This document shows, piece by piece, positions 122 to 5,216 of a DNA stretch of 64,000 nucleotides; within the stretch, counting starts at the first letter, position 1, and every line of letters begins with the position of its first letter. Position numbers and translations under genes: made by a program. The stretch is from Candidatus Gastranaerophilales bacterium. GTDB taxonomy: Bacteria; Cyanobacteriota; Vampirovibrionia; Gastranaerophilales; Gastranaerophilaceae. Under the pieces are notes generated by a model. The model did no database searches and was not told the origin of the DNA. It worked only from the letters and a program-made list of their open reading frames with translations. Location of the stretch: the NCBI GenBank assembly GCA_944323145.1, contig CALURJ010000002.1, positions 62,001 through 126,000 on the forward strand. The letters are read 5' to 3'.

Positions 122-1906
122 ATGGAAATGTTAAAAAAATGTTAAGAATTTCGGGGGGGGGGCTGCTTTAAGCCTTGCTATACACTCGCAGAAATAGTTG
201 TCGTTATACTTATTATAGCTGTAGTTACTGCTGTAACTATTCGTGTAACTAAAGCTAAATTAGATAATATTGTCTTTTATACTTATAATACTGCTTATAA
301 TACTTTGAAGTCTGTAACATCTTCCATTTTAGCAGATTATAACCCTAAAAATGATGATTATATTTTGACATTTGTGCATAAATCCGGCAATTGTCTAAAT
401 CATTCTCTAAGTTTTTAGATTCTATGTTCAATAATATTATTTTGCCTGTCTATGCCGTAAATAGTGCAACGCATTATTATTTTTTATAGAGATTATCTTG
501 AAATTTATGATACTCAATACAGTTTTTCTCAAGTTTTAAAGTCATATAAACTCCCTGATGGTTCTAAAAAATTATTTACCTTCCCTGATGCTGAAGTAAA
601 TTGGCCTTATATTACAGCATCTGTTTATAATCTTGATGAAGATTTTGTAATGTGCCCCGGACATTATAGATCAGTCATACATTATGGCGGAGGAGATGCA
701 GTTGATAAGCATACTACGTATGATAAAAAAAGTGACCCTGATTTTTGTAAAAAAGCCTGCTATGTGCATGATGGAAAAAATAATAAAACAGAAGTCAATG
801 TGTATGACAAGGATAGTTGCGGAAGATATTTCTTTTTGGTCAGTGGCTGCAGTGCTGATGGATTGGGCACCGAAGATACGTATATATACAATATAGCATT
901 GAAGCAGAATGCGGTTAAGCCAAATCTTGCTACATATATAAGTGATTATCATAGTTATTATACAAATGAACTTGCTGATATGTGTAGTTTTTATATTACT
1001 AATGAACCTGATTCTGATGAACCGATTGAAGACGATAAAACCACCCCTGTAAATCCTGATGATGATAATCCAATTAATCAAGATCCTGATAATTCCGATG
1101 AACATTGTAAAGAAGCAGCTCCTGCTATTATGCCTTGTGGGAAACAATGGGATGATTCAACCTGTGCTTTAGTAGATATAAGTAATTTTCCACCGGAATG
1201 CGGTACAGGTTACGAATTTAACAGTAAGGATGAAGTTTGAGCTTGTGTGTCAACAGTTCGAACTATTCCGCGTAAGGGGGAAAATTTTTGTAAACTTGTT
1301 GCAGAACGCGTAAATACAAAACCAAATACTGTTGATTGTGCTGGTACTGCAATAGTATCGGGTATAACTGATTTTTCATCTAAAAAACCTGATATAGTTT
1401 TACGAAATGGAATGAAAATTTATAATATAAGCCAAAATCCTGTTTCTATACAGGTTTTAGCAAATAATATCGATGAAGGTTCTTACAGAGATTCTTCTGG
1501 AAATGAAATAAAAATAAATGAATATGGTTATACCGTATATGTCGATATTGACGGTGATAATGGGGCTTCTGTTTTATGGGATGATATTTACCCGTTTTAT
1601 ATAACTATGTCGGTGCATGTAATTCCTGCTTATGATAAAAAATTGAATCCGGATGGCTGCGGCGGTGATAGTAAACAGTTTTTGCAGGTAAGTGTATTGC
1701 ATGAAATGATATCTGACAGAGGTACAAGAAAGCTTTCTTGGTTAGCAAAGAGTGTAAGTTTTCAGGAAGGTGCTTGTATTGAAGGCTATGTCGGTGAAAA
1801 TACCCCATATTGCCGCAATGACAATTACCGTATACATGATTTTTGTATGGCGGACACTTCAGTGTGTAGACTAAAAATAGTCCGTCCATTGAGGTCATTT
1901 TTATAA
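122..1906 (+). pseudogene. Broken prepilin-like (type IV pilin/pseudopilin family) gene
   Basis: A ribosome site (aaggag, 112-117) precedes ATGs at 122 and 128. The reading frame then meets TAA at 143, a run of seven A and a run of ten G (153-162), and continues as CYTLAEIVVVILIIAVV, a prepilin-type cleavage motif and hydrophobic helix. One A more and one G fewer would restore a continuous N-terminus. Further damage is visible: TAG at 416 with the neighbouring frame continuing coherently from about 406 to 486, a return to the first frame near 480, and an in-frame TGA at 1238 after which the same frame runs on to 1906. The body is Cys-rich and secreted-looking, with an Asp/Pro/Asn linker near 1015-1100. 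Family assignment rests only on the N-terminal helix. Sequencing error, decay or switching could each explain the lesions. Confidence 0.65.
153..162 (+). repeat. Poly-G tract (10 G) just inside a prepilin gene
   Basis: Ten consecutive G follow a short start region and precede the prepilin motif. The same tract length recurs at 4024-4033 in another prepilin gene. Such runs are prone to slipped-strand length changes. Confidence 0.9.
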
Positions 1907-2021
1907 ATAAACATTGATTTCATTGTATAAAACTTGTCAAAGTGATAAAAAATGTTATAATGGTAATGTGAAACATTAATATTATAATAAGCAATCAGCA
2001 TTTACTCTTGCTGAAGTTCTT

Positions 2022-2714
2022 GTGACCTTAGGTATTATCGGCGTTGTTGCTTCCATGACTATGCCGACTTTAGTTAATAACCAGAAAAATAAAACACTTG
2101 AAGCTCAATTTAATGTTGCTCACTCTCTTGTCGCTCAGGCAATAAAGAGGATGAGCTCCGAAAATATTGATCTCGCAAGACAGTATTGTTATAACTACAG
2201 AGATAGAACGGAAAATATATTTATAAGAGATTTTGCAAAATATTTGAATGTTGTAAAAAGCGAATATGGTAATACTGCAGATTTAACAAAATTAGGTTAT
2301 TCTGATGCTACTTTTTTTCAGTCTGCACCAGGCAAGGTTATATTTAATTATGATTCTCACAATAATGGTGCAATATTTTTAAGCAATGGCATGATGATTG
2401 CATCGAGCGGGTGTTGGTGGACCTCCGGCGGTGTAGGGCTTGATTTTATTATCGATACAAACGGGACTAAAGGACCTAATAAATTTGGTTATGATGTTTT
2501 CTATTTCCAGCTGGATAAAGATAATAAATTACATCCTGATGCCGGTGATTATTTGTTTGCTACAACAGATTCGGCAAAAGCAGCATGTTGTAATTTTAAA
2601 AAGGCTAGTACGTGTTCTGTCCCGCAGGATACAGGTGTTTCTTGCGCCCAGTTTGCTATTACAAATACTTCCCCGCATGATAAAACAAAAAAATATTGGG
2701 ACAGCTTGCCTTAA
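2022..2714 (+). CDS. Prepilin-like secreted protein, 5' end disrupted
   Basis: The frame is open from 1980 to the TAA at 2714 and encodes a prepilin-type segment (QSAFTLAEVLVTLGIIGVVA) followed by a Cys-containing globular domain typical of pseudopilin-like proteins of this lineage. The GTG at 2022 is the only standard start after the upstream stop, but it lies inside the motif and would remove the cleavage site. A better start is GTG at 1968 (Met-Lys-His), yet it runs into TAA at 1977. No clear ribosome site is visible. The gene is therefore either silenced by a point mutation or uses something unusual. It follows the broken prepilin gene by about 60 bases and its stop overlaps the convergent GntR gene by 4 bases. 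Confidence 0.7.
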   Translation: MTLGIIGVVASMTMPTLVNNQKNKTLEAQFNVAHSLVAQAIKRMSSENIDLARQYCYNYRDRTENIFIRDFAKYLNVVKSEYGNTADLTKLGYSDATFFQSAPGKVIFNYDSHNNGAIFLSNGMMIASSGCWWTSGGVGLDFIIDTNGTKGPNKFGYDVFYFQLDKDNKLHPDAGDYLFATTDSAKAACCNFKKASTCSVPQDTGVSCAQFAITNTSPHDKTKKYWDSLP

Positions 2715-3865
2715 TTGTTATACACTTCTGCATATTTAGGATTGACGGCAAGCCATTTGAAAGTCTGTTCATCGGTTTCTGGAATATCTATTACAAATGT
2801 TCCGCCGTAGCGTCCGCGTGAAAATGCAAGATAACCTTCTTTTGCAAGGTTATGGAATGCTTTCCTTATTGTATTAGGGCTTAAATCAAGCTGTTTTGAC
2901 AATTCTATGATAGAAGGCAATTTTGCTCCGATTTCATAGTTTTCAGCGATAAGCTTTTTGATATGGTTCTGAGTCTTTTCATAATAGTAAAATGCCGTGT
3001 CAACTGCAGGTGCGAATATTGATGTTTCTTTTTTTATTGAAATATTTTTATCATAAGGCATTTTTACAACGGTTGTTCCGTAACGTCCCCTTCTGGCAAG
3101 CAAAATTCCTTCGTCAATTAATGTTTTCAGCGCATCGTGAATAGTTTTAATGCTGACTGACAAATTTTTTGAAAGAGTTTCATGAGGAGGAATTCTATCG
3201 CCGACATTCAGATTTTCCGTTATATAATTTTTTAAATCCGATTCAACTTTTTTTACAAGAGAAACATTTTCTTCAACGGCATCTTCAAGCGTAAAATCTG
3301 TTGATTTTATAATCCAGCCGTTTTCGTTAGAATTTTTAAATTTGTGCTCAAGTATATTTATTGTGGAAAGATATTCCAGAGCTAATCTTGTTGTATTTGC
3401 AGAGCTTTTGATATTAAGCGCAATATTCCTGGATGACGGCAAGGACTGGCCGGCTTTTAACCCCTTATCAATAATATATTTTTTTATTGCGGATATTGCT
3501 ATCTCACGTTTAGAGGTAAGTTTTCTGATAGAATTTTCAGGGTTGCTTCTGTCGCGGATAATAGTTCCTATACATTGTTTTGATTCAACATATCCCAGAT
3601 CTTCGATATAGCGTAAGGCGTTTTGAATAGTCCCGATACTTACGCCAAGAAGGTATGCCATCTCCGGTTTTGACGGCAATAAAAAGTTTGGTTTAATATT
3701 TTTATCACTGTCAATCCAGACCATAAGCCATTTTGCAATCGCAATCGCTTTTGATTCCGAAATATTTTTCAAATCAGGAAGTTCTGCAGTTATATCACTA
3801 ACCTTAATTTGATATAAATTAGCTTTTTGCGGGAGAATATATTTATTTTCTTTCATTTCACACAT
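2711..3865 (-). CDS. Multi-domain GntR-type winged-helix transcriptional regulator
   Basis: This 384-residue protein appears to consist of four tandem GntR-like winged-helix DNA-binding units, at roughly residues 40-105, 118-190, 205-270 and 295-365. Each shows the GntR pattern: a helix ending in (K)LPS or RIPP, a recognition helix such as LSPNTIRKAFHNL or VSIKTIHDALKTL, and a wing (RGRYGTTVV, RGRYGGTFVI). No ligand-binding domain (FCD, UTRA or aminotransferase) is seen, which is unusual for the family. The last two units are closest to canonical; the second is degenerate. It lies between two prepilin genes, so control of that cluster is a reasonable guess but not shown. Confidence 0.8.
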   Translation of the reverse strand: MCEMKENKYILPQKANLYQIKVSDITAELPDLKNISESKAIAIAKWLMVWIDSDKNIKPNFLLPSKPEMAYLLGVSIGTIQNALRYIEDLGYVESKQCIGTIIRDRSNPENSIRKLTSKREIAISAIKKYIIDKGLKAGQSLPSSRNIALNIKSSANTTRLALEYLSTINILEHKFKNSNENGWIIKSTDFTLEDAVEENVSLVKKVESDLKNYITENLNVGDRIPPHETLSKNLSVSIKTIHDALKTLIDEGILLARRGRYGTTVVKMPYDKNISIKKETSIFAPAVDTAFYYYEKTQNHIKKLIAENYEIGAKLPSIIELSKQLDLSPNTIRKAFHNLAKEGYLAFSRGRYGGTFVIDIPETDEQTFKWLAVNPKYAEVYNN

Positions 3866-3993
3866 ACCTTATCACATAATAATACACTATTTATAAAAAA
3901 ACATCAACTATTTTTTTGCTGTTTTATTACGATTAATTTACATTTTTTTTAATTAATCATTTCATGTTATCCTTTAAACAAGGAGGTATTATA

Positions 3994-5216
3994 ATGAGAA
4001 ATATAGAGAGATTTTGTAGCTTCGGGGGGGGGGCACTCTAGGCTCCGTTGAAGGTCAGGAAGAAGATACTTGTTTTACTTGTCATTCCGCATTAGTTGCG
4101 GGATCTGCCGAAGGCTCGGAAGATAAGAAGATAGGAAGATATGCCTTTATCGGTGAGTGCAGCCTCCAAAAAAATAAATTCCTTTCCTTATTAGGGAAGG
4201 TAAGGATGGATTTCAAACAATACCCGCCCCATCTCTTCAGAGAAATAAAGCCTTTTCTAAATAGGGAAGGTTTGGAAGGGTTTCAATTATTCTGTTTCTT
4301 AAAAAGATTGCTATTGCTACCCACCCCTAACCCCTGTCTTGCCCGCTTTGCGATAAACGGGCACGGCTCCGCCTTTGGCCCTATGCAAAGCGGATGTTCC
4401 CTAATCAGGGAGGGGAAGGATAATTTCCCGAAACACACTTATCGTCCTAATATCTTAACGTCTTATTGTCTTAAGAAAAAAGTTGCCTTCACTCTTGCCG
4501 AGGTTCTAATTACTCTGGGGATTATCGGCGTTGTTGCCGCTATGACGATCCCAGTATTAATTGCTAAATATCAGGAAAAACAATGGACAACTGCTTATTT
4601 AAGAGTATATTCTTTGTTGGAAAATGCATATCGTATGGCACAGAATGAAAATGGAACTTTTGAAAATTGGGCGGGTGTTACACTGTCAATTAGTGAAGGA
4701 GATGGCGGCACAGATAGAACCAAGTCTGATGGCATGGCTATTTATAATACTATGATAAAGCCATATCTAAAGCTGAATAATACGTTTTTCCAATCATCAT
4801 GGGATTATGCTGCAACATGTATGTCAGGCTCCCAATTATATACTTTGGCAAATGAATATATGCCGCATGATTACGGATTTCCTATTGTTAGTCTGGCCTC
4901 AGGAGAATGTATTTCTTTAGGCGATAGAAGCGCGGATTTTTGGGTGGACCTTAATGGCAAAAAGAAACCAAATACTTTGGGTAAAGATATTTTTATGATT
5001 TCTTTTGATATTGTTACACGGGAACGCCTAAAACCTGGTTACATGGATCGTTGGTGGACTGATGTACCGGAATATTGCAATAGAGAAACTTCTTCAGGAA
5101 CCGGTTGGACAACCGGAACTTCCTGCGGGTTCTGGATATTAAGACATCATAATATGGACTATTTGCATCTCCCGTATGAAGAAGTTAAAAAGAAATGGAA
5201 CGGCGGCTGGTGGTAA
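3994..5216 (+). CDS. Prepilin-like protein with poly-G interrupted start (out of frame as sequenced)
   Basis: A strong ribosome site (aaggagg, 3980-3986) sits 7 bases before ATG 3994, which reads MRNIERFCSF and then enters ten G (4024-4033). As sequenced this frame stops at TAG 4039. With one more G (or two fewer) the frame joins, without a stop, the long frame that contains ATG 4206 and ends at 5216. In that frame a prepilin motif, KKVAFTLAEVLITLGIIG, begins about 165 residues in, followed by a Cys/Trp-rich domain ending WNGGWW. The stretch between start and motif is low-quality protein built from sequence that resembles dispersed intergenic repeats. ATG 4206 has no ribosome site. The gene is phase-off, frameshifted, or misread in the homopolymer. 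Confidence 0.65.
4024..4033 (+). repeat. Poly-G tract (10 G) that sets the frame of a prepilin gene
   Basis: Ten G lie 30 bases after the ATG at 3994. Eleven or eight G would join this start to the long downstream prepilin frame; ten G ends translation at 4039. Confidence 0.9.

Follow-up and report, generated by a model that had tools for sequence, protein, structure and literature searches.

The window, a 64,000-nt stretch of a Candidatus Gastranaerophilales genome, carries two prepilin-type genes close to its left end, gene 1 (122-1906) and gene 2 (3994-5216), each with a run of ten guanines shortly after its start codon (Table 1). G runs in the window number 39 of four, seven of five, none of six to nine and two of ten, and no G or C run longer than five was found there besides both G10 tracts. 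As an earlier note on this DNA had described, both tracts consist of exactly ten G, follow a TTC and are close to the start codon, about 30 bases past the ATG. Its claim for gene 2, that a good ribosome site and one extra G would give more than 390 codons, was borne out by translation: from ATG 3994 behind AGGAGG, one added G produces a 407-codon frame running into an FTLAEV prepilin. The body of gene 2 and its syntenic ortholog in another genome of the set (G015), both out of frame as assembled, differ with dN 0.030 and dS 0.459.

Table 1 Features of the two tract-bearing genes (window coordinates)
Feature	Position	Strand	Remarks
Gene 1 start ATG	122..124	+	AAGGAG ahead; in pilin-body frame at G10; stop at 143-145
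Gene 1 G10 tract	153..162	+	context TTTC-G10-CTGCTTTAAGCC
Gene 1, decayed large prepilin	122..1906	+	YTLAEI motif 179-196; in-frame stops 143, 416, 458, 1238
Gene 2 ribosome-binding site AGGAGG	3981..3986	+	
Gene 2 start ATG	3994..3996	+	30 nt upstream of tract
Gene 2 G10 tract	4024..4033	+	context CTTC-G10-CACTCTAGGCTC
TAG closing gene 2 G10 frame	4039..4041	+	two codons past tract; early stop here conserved in family
Gene 2 leader of dispersed repeats	4034..4487	+	open in frame reached with one extra G
Gene 2 prepilin body	4488..5216	+	FTLAEVLITLGIIGVVAAMT

For gene 1, the start had been thought to lie out of frame with the prepilin body at G10. This was wrong: ATG 122 already shares the frame of the YTLAEI motif and stops block that frame, so the frame argument fails for this gene. 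With four stops in its pilin frame, gene 1 is a decayed version of a large type of prepilin that also occurs at another place in the genome; a tblastn comparison aligned it with a tract-bearing paralog of its own genome (locus L035) at 29% identity over 471 positions (E 4e-31). As read from its frames, gene 1 cannot be switched by tract length alone.

Two further genes lie between these. A third prepilin gene (1975-2714) is without a tract, and its frame into FTLAEV has a TAA near a TATAAT-like promoter. On the minus strand, 2711-3865 encodes a 384-aa protein with several GntR/winged-helix matches in Pfam (four GntR stretches), an unusual multi-domain regulator adjoining pilin genes, and this synteny is kept in G015.

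Distribution and frame design of the tracts

The genome that contains the window (1.885 Mb in 35 contigs) holds 26 tracts of the form TTC-G8 or longer, against two for the reversed control pattern, and 48 runs of at least seven G altogether. Tracts were present in 29 of the 33 genomes of the genus, with a maximum of 58 each, and the exact pattern TC-G10-C occurred up to 115 times per genome within the genus, against zero to four for the reversed pattern, while it was absent or rare in the sampled other genera of Gastranaerophilales. As at contingency loci, these homopolymers are long enough for slippage and occur far beyond chance. Named records with the tract and its flank belonged to Candidatus Gastranaerophilales, Melainabacteria and uncultured MAGs; one contig labelled Methylacidiphilum (L077) matched the pattern but in an unrelated context, and a search of viral contigs for the tract with its flanks gave no match. 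Our literature search found no paper linking Gastranaerophilales with phase variation.

Tract-bearing prepilin genes share a common layout: the start codon is followed after about ten codons by the tract, which is G10 or, in reversed genes, C10; next comes a stop in the G10 frame, and the body is open at one added base. The tract mostly lies about 30 nt inside the gene. Prepilins were recognized in the sequence by an FTLAEV-type cleavage motif followed by a hydrophobic helix, and the Pfam N_methyl match of the prepilin (E 3e-4, 20.6 bits) falls slightly below the cut-off of 21.2. Among 187 distinct tracts followed by a prepilin motif in the fetched loci, the motif frame was open from tract to motif in 179, while the other two frames were open in 28 of 374 cases; for leaders of at least 15 codons the figures were 132 of 140 against 5 of 280. 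Pilins were counted by searching for the motif and for a start behind a Shine-Dalgarno-like site; on this basis, 195 of the 219 prepilins with an upstream start require a tract of 8 or 11, that is, one base added or two removed, and 18 prepilins are already in frame at G10. The G10 frame is closed within five codons past the tract in 175 of these 195, compared with 39 for the third frame, and the early stop is found in 137 of 143 genes with G on the coding strand and in 38 of 52 with C on it. By translation, a unit change of length therefore toggles between an intact and a truncated product. The same layout, with its slippery run, close 0-frame stop and body in the -1 frame, is also that of a programmed -1 frameshift. 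In relatives devoid of tracts the leaders are plain and short (for example MKKGFTLAEV). Dispersed repeats sit between tract and pilin and are kept as open frame, both in gene 2 and in other leaders.

The bodies are under purifying selection. In the comparison of two species (G026 and G004), dN/dS was about 0.05 to 0.3 in four pairs, two further pairs being too similar to judge and two probably not orthologous; together with the values for gene 2, these ratios indicate that the bodies are used. The pilin loci are mosaic, with promoter and leader replaced and the body conserved. In one orthologous pilin body (L138 and L139), dS was 1.4 in the first 70 codons against 0.24 in the rest, a contrast that would be a sign of mosaic exchange.

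The non-pilin tract genes tested were mainly family-2 glycosyltransferases and similar genes, together with a sugar epimerase and a HipA gene, and mostly they are in frame at ten. Surface or variable functions (prepilins, family-2 glycosyltransferases, epimerase) are enriched among tract genes, and the presence of the same tract in glycosyltransferases, epimerase and HipA fits a reading as contingency loci. Roughly nine in ten tracts have a C at both -1 and +1, unrelated genes included. Whether the conserved 3' flank is purely a DNA motif was considered; the conserved early stop explains part of it, but not a like flank upstream of C-oriented tracts. In a radical-SAM gene (G000:C6, L039/L249; orthologs L250-L261), C-G10-C was gained through synonymous changes only, and these are clustered: two genomes (G000 and G022) read CTC GGG GGG GGG GCG where orthologs read, for example, TTA GGC GGC GGA GCT for identical amino acids. 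In a third genome (G032), 99.7% identical around the site, the run is broken by one A (GGG GGG GGA GCG). In a second gene, PPP is encoded with C10 in G026 and G004 and without a tract in G031.

Length and strand of the tracts

Tract lengths were in every case taken from the assembly consensus, each species was represented by one genome, and loci L076-L137, fetched by the G10 pattern, were excluded from the length statistics. In the 112 loci sampled without length bias (runs of at least eight), 86 tracts were G10 and 25 genes were ON as assembled, the latter figure being 11 of 32 in the genome of the window; the length distribution was independent of which length is ON. One 397-kb contig (C1 of G026) carried 45 runs of exactly ten and two of eight; lengths 7, 9 and 11 did not occur on it. 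Other forms nevertheless exist, namely G8, G9, G11, G12 and G13. Different lengths in siblings had been named in advance as a sign of switching, and length differences between close relatives or copies were found in 8 of the 32 tract pairs whose flanks match by at least 88%, including one near-identical pair with 10 against 12 and a single mismatch across 80 flanking bases. By contrast, a position comparison of the syntenic G026 and G004 (about 90% alike) gave ten in both for 11 of 12 tracts and 10 against 11 in the remaining one. Loss of mismatch repair was ruled out as the cause, since genes for MutS and MutL are present, and the open-frame length of MutS showed no clear relation to the number of tracts.

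Along a contig, tracts preceded by C stay on the same strand; a genome has one or two flips, and only 5 of 266 neighbouring tract pairs were discordant in a tally of five genomes. On the G026 contig described above, tracts numbered 45 on one strand and 0 on the other, while long open reading frames (107 against 105 per strand) and runs of two to six were balanced. In G025, the flips coincide with the change of sign of the GC skew and the G run lies on the G-rich strand; the skew on the tract strand was positive in all ten 20-kb stretches scored. GC skew served as the guide to the origin because dnaA, tried as a marker, does not lie at the polarity flip in G026. The tracts thus have a strand bias relative to replication, as do Chi- or KOPS-like polar chromosome sites. 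Gene direction was rejected as the cause of this uniformity: about a fifth to a quarter of tract genes run in reverse and show C10, and G- and C-oriented genes share one tract strand.

Proposed slippage and its alternatives

The frame design and the length changes point to switching, and the polarity of the tracts points to a process of DNA replication. Together with the in-frame tracts of the enzyme genes, these features are best accounted for by default-OFF slippage with an equilibrium at ten, and we lean towards reading the tracts as contingency switches that would vary by replication slippage at a polar tract. In such a scheme a G would be gained or lost at the tract during DNA replication, with a strong equilibrium at ten; each pilin would be OFF in most cells and ON in a minority of them, those with G11 or G8; enzyme genes that are in frame at G10 would be ON by default, and the strand rule would arise if G10 slippage depends on which replication strand bears the G run. 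For C. jejuni, an insertion bias at G8-G9 and a deletion bias at G10-G11 are cited at second hand in PMC4085013, and biases as given in that citation would yield an equilibrium at ten. The phase-variation switch proposed in the earlier note is therefore retained in part: slippage-prone tracts occur genus-wide at a fixed prepilin site with ON one base away, gene 1 drops out of the argument, and the switching itself is what we infer from them. As a whole, the ten-G runs of Gastranaerophilales look like a large, unusually uniform system for random switching of surface genes.

Several observations count against slippage. Tract lengths cluster at ten much more closely than free slippage should allow, the flanking C bases and the clustered synonymous gain of a tract are not predicted by simple slippage, and the intact MutS and MutL genes also weigh against it; in mismatch-repair-proficient meningococcus, G10 switching occurs at only ~1e-7 (PMC4085013). 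The centring of lengths on ten, the strand polarity, the C on both sides and the early G10-frame stop go beyond ordinary slippage and had not been foreseen. It is possible, though we would not bet on it, that C-G10-C is a dedicated, replication-strand-specific DNA element actively held at ten, at which a controlled one-base gain, as opposed to ordinary random slipping, would turn on single pilins of a large repertoire. A different proposal leaves the DNA unchanged: by programmed recoding, a fixed share of ribosomes would shift by -1 at a constant ten-base tract, or RNA polymerase would add a base, setting a low pilin level. The constant length, the same shift needed in 195 of 219 genes, the early G10-frame stop and the strong purifying selection acting on bodies that lie out of frame in both species compared would suit it, but at the RNA level neither replication-strand polarity nor a choice of G10 or C10 by replichore would have a reason, tracts persist where G10 is already in frame (the 18 prepilins and the enzymes), and forms from G8 to G9 and G11 to G13 exist; we consider recoding unlikely.

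The strict polarity and exact length, the C bases that flank the tract at -1 and +1 in unrelated genes too, the radical-SAM tract reached by clustered synonymous changes and the mosaic pilin loci, in which promoter and leader are swapped around a conserved body, would also be compatible with C-G10-C as the target of a replication-fork protein, for instance one that starts recombination among pilin copies of which most are silent donors. This is rather improbable, as the body frame stays open all the way from the start codon ahead of the tract across the leader, and a frame kept open in this way means that translation across the tract matters. An assembly artefact, in which the true length would be eleven and the consensus would lose one base, is very unlikely. 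Breaks and errors at G tracts are frequent in short-read assemblies (PMC4235727), and some contigs here end at tracts, but several genomes have enzyme genes whose frame is intact with a tract of exactly ten and would be broken by a uniform one-base loss. The same assemblies also give G11 to G13 at other places, and in G021 shared flanks account for the contig ends at tracts. Contig ends were likewise dropped as proof of a mixture of lengths, since the two G021 contigs share flanks and differ upstream. In these contigs (C71 and C72; L387, L388), the tract and its flanks are common to both while the upstream sequence differs, a pattern that suggests a possible recent duplication or exchange of promoter regions.

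The genomes studied here have mismatch repair genes, unlike Campylobacter, which to our knowledge is without them. In Neisseria, pilC has a G tract in the signal-peptide region of a pilus gene, and we know of no such polarity or flank rule for poly-G phase variation in that genus. Where Neisseria poly-G loci include a few pilus genes, Gastranaerophilales have dozens of prepilin paralogs. C. jejuni NCTC11168 has 29 poly-G/poly-C loci of seven or more (PMC4965091), and many G/C tracts of this species, mostly 8-11 long, lie within or beside surface-structure genes (PMC4965091; PMC5135748). Many G/C tracts in surface-structure genes are thus common to both groups, but those of Gastranaerophilales are mostly in prepilins, are far tighter at ten, have C on both sides and follow replication-strand polarity. 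In Neisseria, hmbR and hpuAB undergo translational ON-OFF switching by poly-G (PMC4235727; PMC4085013), the kind of switching proposed for Gastranaerophilales, and the guanine quartet at pilE serves in moving sequences of silent partial copies into a single expression locus (PMC4235727). Both at pilE and in Gastranaerophilales a G-rich DNA element lies near pilin genes, and that of pilE drives variation; unlike at pilE, every copy in Gastranaerophilales has its own tract within the reading frame. Homopolymeric tracts at 5' ends have been described as a general means of prokaryotic regulation, with efficient frameshifts shown for the 5' poly-A of inlA (PMC2831843); as in inlA, the tract lies inside a coding gene, but it is G10 with fixed flanks rather than a short A6/A7. 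If the slippage reading is true, uncultured gut relatives of cyanobacteria own one of the larger G-tract contingency sets, mostly pilins and default-OFF. With tract strand tied to replication direction and mismatch repair genes present, they would also provide a natural data set on replication direction and homopolymer stability.

Promoters in leaders and a HipA-type gene

In 27 of the 187 tract leaders (for example L011, L020 and L021), a TATAAT-type promoter is followed by a start codon, which may allow some pilins to be produced independently of the tract as well. The translation of these 27 leaders contains a recurring CYNxDMxHH segment. The HipA-type gene (L219) has G10 in its N-terminal part and is open only with one extra G; it is possibly a switchable toxin-type kinase.
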